DNA of 64,000 bases from Pocillopora verrucosa (lineage: Eukaryota > Cnidaria > Anthozoa > Scleractinia > Pocilloporidae). How positions within the stretch are numbered: position 1 is the stretch's first letter; the number at the start of each line of letters is the position of its first letter. The position numbers were made by a program, and so were the translations under genes. The notes below the pieces were generated by a model, which saw nothing but the letters and a program-made list of their open reading frames with translations, did no database searches and was not told where the DNA came from. Below, piece by piece: positions 19,501-60,912 of this stretch. The stretch spans positions 8,858,382 to 8,922,381 of the forward strand of contig NC_089316.1 of NCBI RefSeq assembly GCF_036669915.1, read 5' to 3'.

Positions 19501-22500
19501 TCTTGCACACTGTTTCTTCTCTTCTTCTGATTGACTTTCACTTCAATGATTCACGCAATAAATGTTCCTTTTCTTTTCAATCTGACGTTTCGATCAATGT
19601 CTAGTCCACTTTTTCCTCTCTTTACTTTTGTTTGTTGCAGATATATTGCGCACTGTTTTGTCTTTTCTCTGTTAGGTTGTTTTGTTTGTATCTTGCGCAT
19701 AGTTCGTTCTCTTCTCCGATTGAATTTTGCATTAGAATCTACTACAATACTTTATATTTTCTGTGTTTGATTTTCAAGTTAATATCTACCTCGCTGTTTT
19801 CTCCAATCTAAGTTAGCTTCTAGACTTTTTTCTCTGAATTCTGGCTGATTGTCACCGTTATTTCCTACAAACTGTTTGCACTCTTCTGTTTGACTATTTC
19901 GTAGTAGCTCACGCAATATTTTAGGCCAATTTTACCTGAACAATTTGCATTGGTTTCTTTTTTCTTCTCTGTTTGAAATTAATTTTTAAGTATATTTCGC
20001 TTTGTTTTTTCCCTTCTTCGTTTATCTTTTAGATTATTATATAGTATCTCACGTTCTTTTTGTTTCCTCTTCCGTTTGTTTGTTATGTTATCATCCCCTG
20101 TACTTGCGAACAATTTTTATCACTCTTTGACGATCAAGTTTGCATGCTACGGGAGAATTGAAAGCTAGATCATGGTGACATTAACCAAGGATCAGTTTTA
20201 AGTTTTGACGAAACTTTTTCCATATTCTCTCGTTTTCTAACATTTAGCTTATTTCCTGCGTTCATCTCAATGTTAATTTTGTCCCCTAATGATATACATA
20301 ATAGATCTAACGGCTGAACTACAGGTTTTATTCAGTCGCACGCTTTCGATTCAAACGTGTTTACGAAGGCATGCCAAAACGACTTCTTGACTTCGAAACA
20401 AATTAGAAATGTCTTTACAAAATAATACCAGTGTCCATTTAAAGACGATAAATGGAAGATAAAAAGAAGAATAATCTTTATGTCGGATCAGTCATCACTC
20501 TGCTCCAATCTTTGCTTCATTTTTGTCCTCCTTGATTTCTTCTTTCCTAAAAACAAACATTCTACATTTGTCACTATTTTAACCGAAAAGCAAACGGAAC
20601 AGGTTAATTTCAACGAAATTACTTTTTCCTTCAATGTCACTGGCCATCAGTCATTTCTAACCTCTCCAAATTATTGTCAGATTCCATGATTGGTGCGAAA
20701 GTGACTTTAAAATTATGATTTAATCATTATGGTTATTGTTGTTTTTTTACAAAATAAAGTTAACTTTTTTAAAGTCAGCTTAAGTTTCTCAGATTACATT
20801 TATCGTCATAGCGTCTAGCATCGTATCAACCTCCAGCAGTTATTCCTGAATATCTTCCATGCAAAAGAAACTCTTTTTCAAGGCCAATTTAGGAAGCGAT
20901 TCATCAAAATCTTATGGCTCCGGCGTTAGATAAAATCGTCTTCTTTTTCTTGACAATTCATAGATGAAAGACAAGGAATAAAACAAACAAATAACAAAAA
21001 CTGACTATTATGTCTTCAACTGAAAATTTAAGTGTACTTATGATATTGGTTTATAATAAAAAATTGCTCATTATAACCAGACTTACCCTTTTTTCATAAA
21101 ATCAAATGTCACGTTATCCCCCATCAGCACAAACGGAGCTCATTGGGAAGGTTTAGAATAGCCATTGCTTCTCAACCATTGAACGGCCTGGTGAAGAGAC
21201 TCACTGGCACTTTCTCCACCCACAAGGTGTTTGTAGAAATGCTTCATGAGCTTCGCCGTTGCTTCGTCTTCTAGAGCCCACGATGCTACCAACACTGAAC
21301 GTGCACCGGATGCTAAGAATGCAGGAGCGATTCCGAGGACTCCTTCCTTTTTAACCAATCCACGCCCCTGTGACAACAGCTGAGTACTACCAGTTTAGCT
21401 CGCACTTGAACTCCTAGAATTTCGGACATAGTCAGGAGGTAGTCTTCCTCTTCAGGAGTATTGTTAGTGGTACGTTGAGGAGAGAGGGCAATCTCTCCTC
21501 TTTCGGCATTTCCATGTGCGACAAGATGTATCTGACTTACCGAAGGTATCGCTTGAAGTACTGCCTGCTCTGTTGCGCGACTTCCTAACAAAGGCTCAAT
21601 GCCCAGCAGTTCACCAACCATCTCTGCTTCCTTTCTTGCATGGAACAATGGTGTAATGTCAATGAGACGTCCATTGTAATGCACTTTGTCAACCGTAGGA
21701 TCACCCGCAAGCAGTGCATCAGTTAGACAGAGAAGGGACGATACGGATTCTGTACTTCTCTGATAAATACTTTCCGGCAGATTCATCACGCAAGGCAGCA
21801 AATGGAACTCGGTACGAGAAACGATCCGGCACAATGATGATTTCAGGCTCTGTAAGTAAGTCTGCCACAGGTGCGACGATCCATCTGTAGCACAAATGAT
21901 GAATTCTTTCGGTATCTTTGGTTTGTCCACCTTGCAAATATGCCCGGCTCACTTTATGAAGAGATGTCGTCACGTTGTCATCCAAAGATCGATCTTCGCA
22001 GTTTGCTTTGGGTAAAACGCCAAAGCCAGCGGCGCTCTTTTTAAAGATTCCTTCCACATCGCAAACTTGCTCGTCAATAAGAGTCTCTACTTCCACTTCG
22101 TCTGTTTTTCTAAAGCAAGTGTCTCCATTTGCTTTCAATACCCAGAGAAGAATTTTCCGCTCTCTGTACGCAATATACAAGAAAACAGAGTTACTCTCTC
22201 TCCTCACGACGTTTTCAATCCCGAAAGCTGAGATGTGGCTTTCCACGGAGTACTTGTCTGCTTAATTCTGCGAGGACTCTTGCTCGTCGCAGTTCCTCAA
22301 CAGAGAGAGCATCTGCAAATTTTCCATAATAGCAAAGCAAGCCAGTGAGTAAATTGTAGGGAAATGTACCGTGTTCCTCTAACAGAGACATTTTAAGTTC
22401 ACTGTTTCCTTTCAGAAAAGTACTGATTTGCTCGCATTTTGCAATACATTGAAGAAGATATTTCATCGCCTTCCCAGCCTCTGACTGCGATATCTTTAAG

Positions 22501-45274: not shown

Positions 45275-46354
45275 GAGTAAATGTCAATAAAAATCACAGA
45301 TTATCGAAAAAGTCGCGGAAACGGTCAAAAATCGATTTGGTTCATTTTTTGCCTGTGGGTAGCCTTATCTAGTAAACAAACGGAAATGGGGTTAGATTTT
45401 TTAAATATGCACTTTAACGGGAATAATTTGTTTTAACATTTCCGGGGGTAAATAGCTCAAATTTCACCAAGCGCGATCCTGAAATTATGCACTTTTCGGG
45501 CACTTGCCATGCTTACAAAAATGTAACGGAAGGACTTTTCTAGTCATAGAAATATTGAGTTGGACTTGTATTATCGTGACAAAGTGATAGTTTTTGTTTA
45601 ATGTTATTCTTGGAGGAGCTACGTCCCTATTAAGAGACGACATCTTCGGCCTTTCGAAATTAAGGCAAAGGTGGTCTAGAATAGCTTGGCAAAAATACAT
45701 GTGGTAGTGTCTCAAAGTTTACAATAACACTACCAAGAAGCCTTGAAAGATAGTTCTTTATGATGTGGGTTTTATTTCTTTGGGACCTTTGACTATCAAA
45801 AGATGACCACCAGCCGAATTTCGGTTAAATTACCATGACGCCATAATGAGTGCATAATGACAAAATTAAACGCGTCGGACACAAATAACTGTTTTGGTCA
45901 GTTATATCTTCACTGGCCGTTAAAATGACTAGAAACATATTAAAATGTCTATAACTACACTTGATTTTTATATACGGAGACAGGAGAAACAATTTTCGAC
46001 TTTTGCTACCCTTTGAGAATCACGCCATAATTCTGCATAATTCTACACACAACAGGTTAAACAGTTCAATTGCACTCAAAAGGTTAAATTTGGCACAAAG
46101 CCGTTAGTTTCCGTTTACTCCTCATCCGGTGAACATGGATTCGAGCATTTGCATCCCTTCTGCGCCTTCTGCACTCGCCAGTTTCGAATTTACTGAAAAT
46201 CGTCCAACACAAAGATAAGGAGGTTTCACAAGCAATGGTGAGCTCGAGAGACTAAAATCCGGACTCTGCTGTCACGCAACGCCTTCATGTAAATAATACA
46301 CGCACCGCTTTTATAATCAGCAGATCAGTTATTCGTAAAACGTTCAGTGCTCAG

Positions 46355-49230
46355 TTACTTGGAAGAGCAGGTACACTCCTGGACTAATTGTGTGAGTCGT
46401 GCGATGAATGGCTTTTTCCTCTTCTGAGGTGAAATGTCAGAAATATCCAGCCCAAGGTCGATGCACATGTCTCTTAGCCTATCCACTCTTAAAGTTGTGA
46501 GTGTACGTTTTTGTACAAGTTCGCAGATGTTTAGATCGAAAGATACAATCGGATGTTGAATAGCCACATCTCCATCACATTTGCACACACTGCAGATAGA
46601 TGACTCTCAGCTTCGGCGGAAATTTCGTCCTTGTCGACGCTCTCCATGTCCACTTCTGAGATTTCACTAGCTTTTGCTCGGTTACCGGCTGCTGTAACTT
46701 CTAATCGCTTCTTTGCTGAAAGATGGCTGAAGAAGCCACTAATCTGCTGCGACGTAAGGACTTCATCAGGTTGAAATCGACGTCCCCCCGCTTGGTCTCT
46801 TGCTAGGCTCATGGTTTTCGTTTTTCTTGTGGATCGCTTTTCCGTCCACTATACTCCCCTTTTTGAAATTGGTCAGTTAAGAATTCAGTCTGTTTCCTTG
46901 TAAAACGCACCTTTTTCTTAATTGTCTTCAGGGCCCAACCCATTGGAAGAGGCGGCAAGCCGTCTCTCTTTGATTGTGCAGCAACTTGAACGCTTGGTAT
47001 TCGACCGCGTCCCTCCATCAGCTTGGAAGAATATTCTCTTTTGGCTTTATCGTAGAGAGTTTCCTGTTCGAGCATCATTTGGTGTTTTCCAGTATCTAGG
47101 TGTGTCTGGAGGTTTGCAAAGCGACTGCAGGCTTTTACACATCCTTCTTCTGGACACGGGAAAAGCATGTCATCTGGCTTATATTCCCCAATACAGCTTC
47201 GATCTTGGTTTTCGCTTTCAGTTAAGAAATTTGCTTTGACAGAGCTTTCCTTAATATGTCGGTGTCTCACAATCTTGAACGTCGGTGCGCCACTTGGACT
47301 CTGCGATGGCGAGTCTAGGATTTCCAATTTTTCGGGCTACTTCATGACTCCTTCGAACTTGGCCCATGGCACTACTTTACCGGAACCCACATTGAATGCT
47401 CTCCACACTCGTGTGTCACTTTCATCGTACTCAAAATTGTTGAGTAAGCTTATGCCATCCCATTTGATATTAGAGGTGCTTGACGGTTTGGCAGCAACAT
47501 AACTTGCTTTCTCTCCTGTGGTTTCTTGGCCAGATTCAATGGCTGTTTTGAACTGTAGAGCGTTGATGACATCATTGCCTTCGTTTACGTACCTTCCAAC
47601 GTACCTTCCCTTGATTGTTGCCGCTTTGCGATCACATACCTCCTTTCCACCTTGAGGGTCCGAAAAGTCGTTTCTTACAAAAGCCACTCCCATGGCATCA
47701 CTGGCCAGCTTAGCTGAGATGATTGAATTTCCGCTGTGAAAATAGCCAGCGTTATCTTATTTGTAATAAGCCATTTCCAGCTCTGGAATTTCCTTTTTCA
47801 GGGTAGTGAGGCAGTCAAGCATAATCGAGGCCACAGTCACACTGTCTTGTCTATTTCAGCTTTGAAATACGTGAACAGGTGTCTGCGATTCAAAGTGCTC
47901 AGAACCCTCTGACCGTCTTATGGCAACGCTAATGTGCCATGGCAATCCTCGCTTCGCAAACCAATCTGACTGCGCCTCTCGATATTTTCGGGGCATATAT
48001 TTCATTGCCCAGTCCTGGACTAACAACACCGATCGGCTGTCGAGTTTGGCTAAAACTGAATGCTTCGCCTCAGCTTGGTGGACTGAACGTAGCTGATGGG
48101 CTTTCCAGCAAATGATATCATCCCTTGCCTGTTTGATGGTAAGTTGCATGTCAGCTTGATCTTCTGCTGACGAGAGCGCACTTGAACACTCATCTTCTAT
48201 GGTACACAATACTTCCTGTAACTCATAACACTGCTCATATGACTCATTGTGGAGATGGTCGCAGGAGCCCCGAAGTTCAGCATTGCTCGGATCACTTAGC
48301 GCGTAAATTCGACAATGATCGGGAACCTTTAAGGCCTCCACTGTATGTGCCTAAAATAAAAAGTAAAATGACAAGCGCGTGATTCAATGTATATTTACAA
48401 AGCATTGCATGCGCATATGATCGACATTTCAAAAAGATTACTTAATCGATTCTCAGCGTTGTGTACATGTGTGTAAGCGTATTACAGTGAATTATAAACT
48501 GTTGTTTCATCACTTAAGCATAAAGAAGACTTGGAGGGAAAGAAAGAGGTAGCCGTGAATCATAGTAAGAAGTTCAGAGTACATCACTTCTGCAAAGGCA
48601 ACGCATAATTATAAAATATGCACCCACATTGTAGTCGCCCTTTAGGTACTGCTTCGAAAAACGAAGTTGCTGCTTAATTTCCCTCGCTCATTGCTGAGTC
48701 TTGCCACAGTCAACAAGCTTGTCTACGAGTTTTTCTATAGCATCAACTGCTTCCATTCCTGATGCTGAAAAGTTATCAAGTCCTTGCAGAGACTTGCGAG
48801 CAGATGAAGAACACACGGCCCAGACTCTCTGTAGAGTTCTCTTACTCATAGGCTCAAAGTTGGTTTCACAGCAGTATTGTTGATACTATTGGACAATACG
48901 CTCTGGTATCATTGTTCTGATAAGATTGGGTGTTTTTATGATCTCGCCAGTCGACAATTTTAGAAGTTTTTCCCCGAAAGGAACATCTTGAGTAACGTGT
49001 GGACTCGTTATGAAAGAAACAAAATGTTCTAATCTTACAGGTTCAATTCTCATTCTCCTTTTCTCCTGGTTTGGAAGAGGAGCAGCTCTTCCGTGTATCA
49101 GGCTTCGCGAAAATCCCGCTTCTTGCTAAGATAAGTTCAATCTCTGTCTCAGCACCTGAAAATTGTAAAAAACGCTTGTGGCTTCCTCTGCGCCACAAAC
49201 GCCACCTACAATATCATGTAAAGACTAAGA
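46355..49230 (-). pseudogene. Broken transposase-like gene of a cnidarian multicopy C2H2 family
   Basis: N to C on the minus strand: an exon with TQDVPFGEKLLKLSTGE and RTLQRVWAVCSSSARKSLQG (about 49060-48640); an intron closing with TTTTTATTTTAG at 48351; then a long exon with LLVQDWAMKYMPRKY (Asp codon 48012-48014), DNAGYFHS (Asp codon 47754-47756), DFSDPQGGKEVCDRK, a C2H2 finger FPCPEEGC...HLDTGKH (about 47165-47085) and a basic C-terminus. In-frame stops at 48886-48888, 47856-47858, 47757-47759 and 47337-47339, plus a frameshift near 46810, disable it. I recognise the motifs from uncharacterised, repeated coral and anemone proteins. The two Asp motifs, 86 residues apart, suggest an RNase-H-like fold; this is inference. 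Confidence 0.75.
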
Positions 49231-49320
49231 CATTCTTTTCCTGCTGGAGTTAAAGCAACCGTTGTCTTTATTCCCTTCACCGACGATTATTACGCTTTTG
49301 TTTTTTGTTTACTTTCGTTA

Positions 49321-50084
49321 TGCGGGTAACAGCGGCCATCCCGAGGGGTCGACCCCCGGGCACCCAGGGGCATTTGTCACAGCTGCCGTGACAAATACAT
49401 GCTAAAGCCCCTCGGGTAGGGCAAAAAATTGGGACAAATACCCCCACCCCTGGAGCAATCTGGGCAACATATAGTCGGCGTTGCCTGTTCCTTGATGCAA
49501 AAGTACGAGTGATCATGGTTTACTGAAGCCACATCAGCACTAAAATCCACACAAGTCTCTATGGAGTCCTCAAATTCGAGCTTTCTGGGGCAAACTTTCT
49601 TGGCTTGCGGTTGTTCATCACACTGTCTCTTCCTATCGGCAAGACGCTTCGAATGCGAACTAACCGTATGAAATTGAAATCTCGATGTCGCTTTCCTTAA
49701 AATGCAATGAACAGATTCTTGGATCGCCGAGTGTCTTGAATTTTTTATCCGCTCGCTTACAGAAAACCTCCCACTTCTTACGCTCATTGGGTCTTGTAGG
49801 AAAGCAAAAATAACTGAGATCAGGTCATTTCCTACTCCCATTACGGCACAGAGCAACAGCACAATACTTGACCATGGTACACAGCTGAAAACCGCTGAAC
49901 GTTGAGACAGCAGATTACGTGCAAATCCCGTGGGTATGGCCCCGGGGTATTTTGCCAAAAACGCAAAAGCGCTCTAATGCCCCGCGTGCGGGGCATGCCT
50001 TTGCTACAAATCCCCTGCTAAGCCCGTGGGTTGCCCTTGGGTTGCCCAGGGGTCGACCCCTCGGGATGGCCGCTGATACCCGCA
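49321..50084. mobile_element. Nested 764-bp TIR element with TTA flanks
   Basis: Left terminus TGCGGGTAACAGCGGCCATC; the right terminus is its reverse complement with one mismatch in the first ~36 bases, including CCCGAGGGGTCGACCCC. TTA precedes the left end (49318-49320) and follows the right end (50085-50087). A looser GC-rich inverted similarity continues about 100 bp inward. A 3-bp TTA/TAA duplication is typical of PIF/Harbinger-type elements, but no transposase is present, so the class is tentative. Confidence 0.7.
49377..49958 (-). other. Open frame carried inside the nested TIR element
   Basis: 193 codons; the central part (RSGRFSVSERIKNSRHSA through KRQCDEQPQAKKVCPRKLEF) has protein-like composition, whereas both ends run into the inverted-repeat DNA. 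It could be an upstream exon of the surrounding transposase-like gene, now flanked by TIRs, or host sequence captured by the element. No domain recognised. Confidence 0.35.
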
Positions 50085-51272
50085 TTAACCCATCACATTT
50101 GTTTTCCGTGGGAAAATTGTATTGTTATTTTCGTTCCAAAAGGTTTTCACTGTACGGTTTATATTTGTGAAATTTTGTAAAGTCTATTTCTTTGTTGTAT
50201 CGTTCTCGTTCATGATGGCAATATATTTGTTTAGATCTTATATGTGAGGCAGAATGAATTGTTTGTTGATCTCGTTACGTGACAGATTATCATATGTCAC
50301 GCAGAGTGACAGGAACCTGTGAAAAATTAAAATCCGGCAAATCGCTAGCGTTACCTGCCGTTTTGTACGGGACCCTTTTCGTGTGAGACGTCAATAAAAC
50401 CAAAATTAAGATCAAAGTAGACTAAACGTAACTGAGTTGTGACGCGCTGTAGAAAATGACAACAACAAATAACTTTATTTTACTCATCCCGGCTCAGTGG
50501 CTTCAATGAGTTAGCCGGTCGGCCACCTTCACACCAAATTGCAAAGGACAGTATTTCGAAAATATCTTCCAAGCGGAATAACAAGGGCCTATAAAAGATT
50601 TCTAAGGTAAGGAACTATTTATGTCAAAGCAAAAATAAAAAGCTAAGTGCGGCTGCGACTCAAACAATGCTTTGCTTGTGTCATTGCAATGTTGATTTTG
50701 TTCATTTCAATATGGCGCCATTTACAATTTTAGCGAAGTTTGGTTGGTTGGTACATCAAAACAGCGGAAGATACCAGAAAAATGAAACGATGAATTTGAA
50801 GACCCACCTTATAAGCCCTCGTGATAGTATTGCTGGAGATTTTGAGAAACTACCACATGCATTTTTGCCACACTACATTAGGCCGGGTTTGGCATGAATT
50901 AAATATGGCGAACACGTCCACTGGTAATTAACCCGTGGTTTCGTCAGGAAGGACACGATACAAAAAATATCACTATATCTTGGTAATGGAAGGCCACATG
51001 TATATATTTATAGCTAGAGAAGTCCTACTGTTGTATTTTAGTTCATGCAAGGACGGCCTGAAAACTGCATAATTTAGAGCTCGCAGGCACTCATTTTCGA
51101 TCATGCAATTAGTATCGGTTTATTTCCGTTAAAATGAATATTTACAGAAACTAACCTCACTTCACTTTAAGTAGTACCTATAGCTACCTGTAGACAAAAA
51201 ATGGGACGAAATGATTTTTTTACCATGTCCGCGATTTTGTTATTTTTCTTTGATTTTTAGAGACATTCACTC
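50085..51272. other. Right arm of the transposon, no clear gene
   Basis: Non-repetitive sequence between the nested element and the right TIR. The 76-codon frame at 50667-50897 has no recognisable motif. The right TIR occupies at least 51120-51272. Confidence 0.5.
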
Positions 51273-59613: not shown

Positions 59614-60912
59614 AATACTTTTCCTCCTCTATTTAATTTCTAAGTTAATATCTATCCCGCTGATTTTTCAATTTGTATTTGTTTCTTACGTTAGAATCTA
59701 TCCAGGAACTTTTTTTCTGAATTCTGGCTGATTGTCACCTTAATTTCCTACCAGCTGTTTGCACTTTTCTATTCGACTATAGCGCTTGTATCTTATGAAA
59801 TATTTCAGGCTAATTTTACCTTTACAATTTGGATATCGTTTCTTTTCACTTCTCTGTTTGTTGCTGATTTTTAAGTAAATTTCATTCTGTCTGTTCCCTT
59901 CTCCGTTTATCTTTTAGATTTTGATATAGTAACGCCTACGTTTCTCTTCCGTTTGTTTGTTATGTTATCACTCTTTGATGATCGCGTCTGCATGCTACGA
60001 GAGAATTGAAAACCAGATCATGGTGATGTAAACCGAGGATCAATTTTATGTTTTGACACAACTCTGCCAACATTCTATCATTTTTTAAGATAAGTTTTTT
60101 TCCTGCGTTCATCCCAATGTTTATTTTAGTTCTCTAATGATATAATTAATTGATCTAACGGCCGAATTGCAGGTTTCTTTGTTGCACGCTTTCGACTCAG
60201 TCGTGTTTAAAAAAGCATGCCAAAACGACTTCTTGACTTTTAAACAAATTAAAATGTCTATGCAAAGTAATACCAGTGTCCATTTAAAGACGATAAATGT
60301 CAGATAAAAGGAAGAAGAATCTTTATGTCGGATCAGTCGTCACTCTGCTCCAATCTTTGCTTCATTTTTGTCCTCCTTGAGTTCTTCTTTCCTAAAAACA
60401 AACATTCTACATTTTTCACTATTTTAACTGATAAGCAAACGGATCAAGTTCATTTGAAAGAAATTACTTTTTCTTCAATGTCATGGACAATGATTTTCGA
60501 ACTTTTCCAAATTATTGTTGCATATGCCAAAATTTAGGCGAAAGTGACTTCAAAATTATGGTTTAATTGGTTACTGTTGTAGATTTTTTACAAAATAAAG
60601 TTAACTTTTTTAAAGTCAGCTGAAGTTTCTCAGATTACTCTCATCGTCATAGCGTCTAGCATCGTATCAACCTCCTGCAGTTATTTCTGAATATCTTCCA
60701 TGCAAAAGGAACTCTTTTTCAAGGCCAATTAAGGTAGCGATTCATAAAAGTCTTCTGGCTCTGAGCACGAAATGAAATCGTCTTCTTTTTCTTTACATTT
60801 TATGGATGAGAGACAAAGACAAAAACAAACAAAAACCGACTATTATGTGTTGAACTGAAAAAGTTAAGTGTGCTAATCGGTTATTATGGAAAATTGCTCA
60901 TTACAATCAGAC
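59614..60912. repeat. 3'-flank repeat of the TPR-CHAT unit, copy D
   Basis: Very similar to 29608-30537 but keeps the ~370 bp missing from the B flank. It contains the unoccupied TTAA site (60249-60252) that corresponds to the transposon insertion point in the C flank. Confidence 0.85.

Follow-up and report, generated by a model that had tools for sequence, protein, structure and literature searches.

Sola3 is the TTAA group of the Sola transposons, and the KDZ proteins (Kyakuja, Dileera, Zisupton) are large, multi-domain transposases of eukaryotes. As far as the consulted parts of the published descriptions go, Sola elements have a DDD transposase and a 4-bp target-site duplication, are mostly 2–9 kb long with some > 15 kb, and have terminal inverted repeats (TIRs) of 11–1124 bp with very variable ends (PMC10741241). 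In excerpts of the same kind, Kolobok elements target TTAA, have RR..YY ends, and carry a C/DxxH motif following the second D (PMC9587614); their usual motifs are DDE, THAP, and H2CH (PMC6004289), and the ends of piggyBac carry CC[C/T]T (PMC2872659). Here, we describe an element in a stretch of 64,000 nucleotides from Pocillopora verrucosa (contig NC_089316.1, positions 8,858,382–8,922,381), referred to below as the window, with position 1 as its first letter. Positions 45275–51272 of the window are a TIR transposon bounded by TTAA sites. The best explanation of the evidence as a whole, in which we have high confidence, is a cut-and-paste TTAA transposon with a three-exon transposase of about 1144 amino acids, the window copy being a dead, internally deleted derivative of such a DNA transposon. 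The transposon group is real; it probably belongs to an already described kind and may be catalogued under a known name.

An earlier interpretation made from the letters alone (the sequence-only reading) had proposed a complete TTAA-flanked transposon with inverted ends and an unoccupied paralogous site, and both were borne out (Table 1). TTAA is present on both sides. Identity between the ends is 83% across 12 aligned columns, falling to 74% across 50, 70% across 160, and 61% across 250. A global alignment of the 250-bp ends scored 56, as against a maximum of −22 among 200 shuffles. When TTAA pairs flanking a core of 4 kb, within a 10-kb stretch, were scored by short-end identity, the pair of the window copy ranked first of 464: 17 of its 20 inner bases were identical, as against 10–12 of 20 in the other five pairs listed. 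The background of TTAA is 516 occurrences in 63,997 window positions. The scan by short-end identity did not recover the ends of the related loci L035–L039, partly because those loci stopped short of both ends, and ends of this type were located with TTAA-GAG patterns instead. Once joined, the 400-bp flanks of the window copy aligned straight through the paralogous empty site at 80% identity, with a single TTAA there, and straight through a second one at 83%, with TTAG there. Another copy, L014 (C5:8965883-8972983), lies 62.6 kb downstream of the window copy, beyond the window itself. Because the two have common flanks (97–98% identity), the window insertion predates a duplication of the region.

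The genome was searched with the 200-bp ends of the window element, which defines family A; the letters A to F were assigned to the families in this analysis, and the repeat counts across the genome are lower bounds. The left end was found in 25 places at an identity of at least 86% (five additional weak matches were right ends), and the right end in 27 places at at least 91% over at least 176 bp. An inverted right-end partner was present at 1.3–8.0 kb for 22 of the 25 left ends, and 17 of these 22 paired copies were 5.1–8.0 kb long. Judged by their 300-bp flanks, the 22 pairs represent 19 independent insertions (by their common flanks, the window copy was counted together with L014, and L027, L028, and L029 were counted as one). 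TTAA was found at 30 of the 36 readable ends of these insertions, on both sides in 12 of the 19, and at all five of the right ends without a partner. L009 and L010, on different contigs, have five differences across 7459 bp; because they are nearly identical yet their flanks are unrelated, we conclude that the family moved recently. Both have an open exon-2 frame of 421 residues and an open exon-3 frame of 663 residues. Four copies of 5.20–5.22 kb (L015, L016, L018, and L022) are all missing one and the same 2-kb part of L009, and have TTAA at both ends. These copies resemble a non-autonomous subfamily, probably mobilized in trans.

The gene was reconstructed with splice sites predicted by their scores and by homology among the families. 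The three joined exons of L009 encode 1144 amino acids with no internal stop, and those of L035, a member of family B, encode 1133 amino acids, also with no internal stop and with the same exon-1 donor, CAGGTAAGC. The sequence-only reading had suggested a search for paired ends with intact genes between them; inverted pairs do occur, and open genes lie between the ends of L009, L010, and L035. A Cys/His-rich exon 1 was detected in all six families, the weakest matches being those of family E (E 4e-7 and 6e-4, in two pieces) and family F (E 8e-9). Candidates for exon 3 numbered 915 genome-wide at first look, of which 67 were scored. In six exon-3 sequences, two acidic positions are invariant, i.e., D113 in QDWAMKF and D198 in QDNAGCYH, with 82–86 residues between them. 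The candidates for a third are D230 in DPQGGKG (D or E in six of six), 30–31 residues beyond D198, and D239 in CDR (five of six). A weak C2H2 finger (E 0.04) lies C-terminal to these positions, and the protein has a weak SAP-like end (E 0.14, from the window piece). Between L009 and L035, the proportions of nonsynonymous (pN) and synonymous (pS) differences were 0.22 and 0.77, the latter saturated, and between L009 and L012 the ratio of nonsynonymous to synonymous rates (dN/dS) in exon 2 was 0.28 (14 differences).

The representatives of families B–F are 32–61% identical to the protein of the intact exon 3; the percentages per family below were obtained by BLAST of exon 3 against L009. Family B (60%) has one complete element, on contig C7, of 9262 bp, with TIR arms of 1.34–1.38 kb that are 84% identical and ends reading TTAA followed by GAGTGATTGTC and TTAA followed by GAGTAAATGTC; L038 has one end of this type. 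In family C (44%, L037), which has two copies in the genome, a single end was read, as TTAA followed by GAGTCAATGTC. Family D (41%) gave 33 strong end matches and seven weak matches to the other end, and 14 of 16 further ends that were read have TTAA. Six family D pairs were read, two of which have the same flanks; TTAA is present twice in four of the five independent ones. Family E, with 44% over the first half but 32% over the last part, gave 37 matches to its end at an identity of at least 85%; TTAA is present at 20 of 20 ends read, and thus twice in 10 of 10 pairs. The end of family F (32%) was predicted from L039 as TTAA followed by GAGGCTG, and was confirmed as TTAA followed by GAGGCTGTCTC at 18 of 18 further ends, which form nine other pairs; two of these have common flanks, leaving eight independent pairs. 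Overall, 35 of 43 independent pairs are flanked by TTAA at both ends (A 12/19, B 1/1, D 4/5, E 10/10, F 8/8), independence in families D, E, and F having been judged by eye from 14–60 flank bases. The ends read across the six families begin with GA, with GG in one decayed copy.

Some further observations concern families D and F. On contig C1, 27.05–27.69 Mb contains two family D copies, each about 1.8 kb long and with identical flanks, together with several more family D ends. Inverted repeats of 335 bp in L039 (GTCGGCC) were considered as the ends of family F and rejected, as they are internal to longer TIRs starting with TTAA and GAGGCTG. At first look, family F had 146 candidate ends, of which 40 were scored, and eight of the nine pairs read are about 2.7–4.2 kb long and probably non-autonomous. 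One family F insertion sits within a family D element of contig C12; its flanks are found again on C5, close to an end of family D.

We also analyzed the distance between the gene and the ends. Among 101 exon-2 matches, in which some genes are counted in pieces, 66 have a correctly oriented family A–E end within 12 kb and 39 have both ends. In 200 random placements, the means were 0.56 for one end and 0.08 for both, with maxima of 3 and 2; in this control the sizes of two contigs were assumed and the genes that had defined the ends were kept in. Because the type of end stays with the protein across six families, and because genes and ends lie closer together than at random, these TTAA-targeting TIR elements very probably have their transposase in this protein family, as the sequence-only reading had proposed.

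The following results weigh against this interpretation. No partner was found within 20 kb for 3 of the 25 left ends and 5 of the 27 right ends of family A; TTAA is missing at 6 of the 36 family A ends and at 2 of the 16 further family D ends (one GTAA, one TTTA). Whereas the gene copies whose ends were sought do have TIRs and TTAA, 35 of the 101 exon-2 matches have no known family A–E end within 12 kb (no search aimed at the ends of these 35 was made), and at least two of the 66 positive matches rely on a probably unrelated end at a distance of > 10 kb. The identity of the third acidic residue is ambiguous, since D239 is replaced by V in the open L035 and D230 by E in L039. In exon 3, dN exceeds dS between L009 and L012 (ratio 1.25, 22 differences). 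A single-sequence structure model had a mean predicted local distance difference test (pLDDT) score of 31 and gave no usable fold, so the putative ribonuclease H-like site was deduced from the conserved residues. Finally, no known transposase model matched in the Pfam, NCBIfam, and PDB scans, which therefore give no independent call of the protein as a transposase.

A mechanism can be proposed from the domain composition, with DNA binding, catalysis, and the catalytic residues as predictions. The protein would bind the long, unequal terminal repeats through its Cys/His-rich exon 1, the C2H2 finger of exon 3, and the SAP-like end. A DDD/E-type site in exon 3, possibly formed by D113, D198, and either D/E230 or D239, would cut at the terminal GAG, and the element would then be joined into TTAA.

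In an alternative explanation, the protein is a passenger gene and the elements were moved by another transposase, e.g., piggyBac. This would accord with the fact that piggyBac likewise targets TTAA and that the genome contains 121 matches to DDE_Tnp_1_7 (PF13843), many of them in open frames, and with the catalytic fold of our protein being a prediction. However, the ends described here are GAG and not the CC[C/T]T given for piggyBac in the consulted part of its description (PMC2872659). Furthermore, the longest frames in L009 and L035 belong to this gene, the remaining long frames being mostly antisense to it, and the protein keeps company with TTAA and GAG ends across six families, down to 32% identity. 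We therefore regard a passenger gene as very improbable. As for the identity of the protein itself, the sequence-only reading had suggested comparison with piggyBac and KDZ models, and neither gave a match. Apart from the common TTAA target, piggyBac was rejected because PF13843 had no match in these proteins and the profile comparison was negative: against three genome piggyBac loci, represented by their longest frames with one partly masked, exon 3 reached a probability of 0.1% and exon 2 one of 0.2%, as against 100% for a related-family control. KDZ was rejected because the proteins do not match the KDZ domain model PF18758; this model has 17 short matches in the genome, and none of them overlaps the listed exon matches when inspected by eye. 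The sequence-only reading had also offered a divergent, Kolobok-like group. The TTAA target and the GA..TC ends, which conform to RR..YY, agree with the Kolobok descriptions in the parts consulted (PMC9587614, PMC6004289), and a THAP fragment is present within the window copy. Nevertheless, the C/DxxH motif between the second D and the last E is missing in five of the six sequences, the sixth having CKNH further on, and the exons scanned (L009 and L035 exons 1–3, L036 exon 3, and parts of L038 and L043) yielded no THAP domain. The THAP fragment of the window lies in a 766-bp insertion that the sister copy L016 lacks, and because it belongs to this nested insertion, THAP was rejected as a part of the transposase. 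A Kolobok lineage was accordingly rejected by these two signatures, C/DxxH and THAP, and we consider it improbable.

This leaves Sola3 and an undescribed superfamily. Sola3 is the most likely name for the group, and we favor it with moderate confidence; an undescribed superfamily appears considerably less likely, although it is a more serious candidate than Kolobok. Both assessments follow from the near fit of the Sola features and from the TTAA target of Sola3, on which the accessible parts of the literature yielded no statement either way. The comparison with Sola was made by description only. A clear likeness is the 4-bp target duplication (TTAA at both ends of 35 of 43 pairs, and an empty site with one TTAA). 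The three conserved acidic places make a DDD transposase plausible, and elements of 5–9 kb with long TIRs come close to the described sizes, except that the TIR arms of family B exceed the 1124 bp quoted in the part of the description consulted (PMC10741241). The alternative, also named by the sequence-only reading, would be an undescribed superfamily, here of DDD/E transposons with a TTAA target and GAG ends, tentatively characterized by a Cys/His-rich N-terminal domain, a core of QDWAMKF / QDNAxCYH / [DE]PQxGKxxCDR, a C2H2 finger, and a SAP-like end. This possibility agrees with the scan of 24,736 Pfam models, which returned a weak C2H2 finger and chance-level matches only and no model for the core of the protein, with the chance-level NCBIfam matches (best E 0.023), and with PDB matches to C2H2 fingers only. 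Likewise, two-pattern searches revealed no relative in viral contigs or in prokaryote species genomes, and the literature searched, as far as its accessible parts go, contained no description of the group. In contrast, the excerpted Sola description nearly fits (PMC10741241), and the missing match says little, as Sola3 was compared by description and not by sequence.

The broken gene that the sequence-only reading had noted inside the window copy was confirmed, and its remnants are summarized in Table 1. The exon 3 remnant retains the acidic triad region, the C2H2 finger, and the C-terminal part, with in-frame stops and a frame change near 46830–46850. Compared with L009, about 2 kb has been deleted internally, which brings the exon 1 remnant up against exon 2. 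This deletion is common to the window copy and its 5.2-kb sisters; the window copy additionally has the stops, the frame change, and the 766-bp insertion. The nested element reads ATGCGGGTA...TACCCGCAT, and comparison with L016 revealed no duplicated bases at the insertion point.

Table 1. Features of the window copy and its empty sites (window positions).
Feature	Position	Strand	Remarks
Left target-site copy TTAA	45271-45274	.	
Left terminal inverted repeat	45275-45426	+	begins GAGTAAATGTC
Exon 3 remnant	46355-48350	-	limits estimated by comparison with L009
Exon 2 remnant	48565-49107	-	residues 225-405 of the intact 421-residue frame; stops present
Exon 1 remnant (SHKRFLQFSGAETEIELILARSGIFAKPD)	49100-49183	-	limits estimated by eye
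Nested 766-bp insertion	49320-50085	.	46-bp inverted ends, 93%; missing in sister L016
THAP-domain fragment	49660-49824	-	inside nested insertion; E 1.5e-9
Right terminal inverted repeat	51120-51272	-	begins GAGTGAATGTC read inward
Right target-site copy TTAA	51273-51276	.	
Paralogous empty site	59892-60669	+	one TTAA at 60249-60252
Second paralogous empty site	20005-20828	+	TTAG at 20403-20406

With these results, a family of multicopy proteins that lacks a curated model becomes a probable transposase whose ends and target are defined. The group is large in this genome and has moved recently, and nearly identical open copies are present. Members of the family should be treated as transposons when the genome is masked, and should not be tallied as expanded host C2H2 genes. 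If the reading as an undescribed superfamily were true, it would explain many so-called C2H2 host genes in cnidarians and would add a type of transposase that is missing from protein-family libraries.

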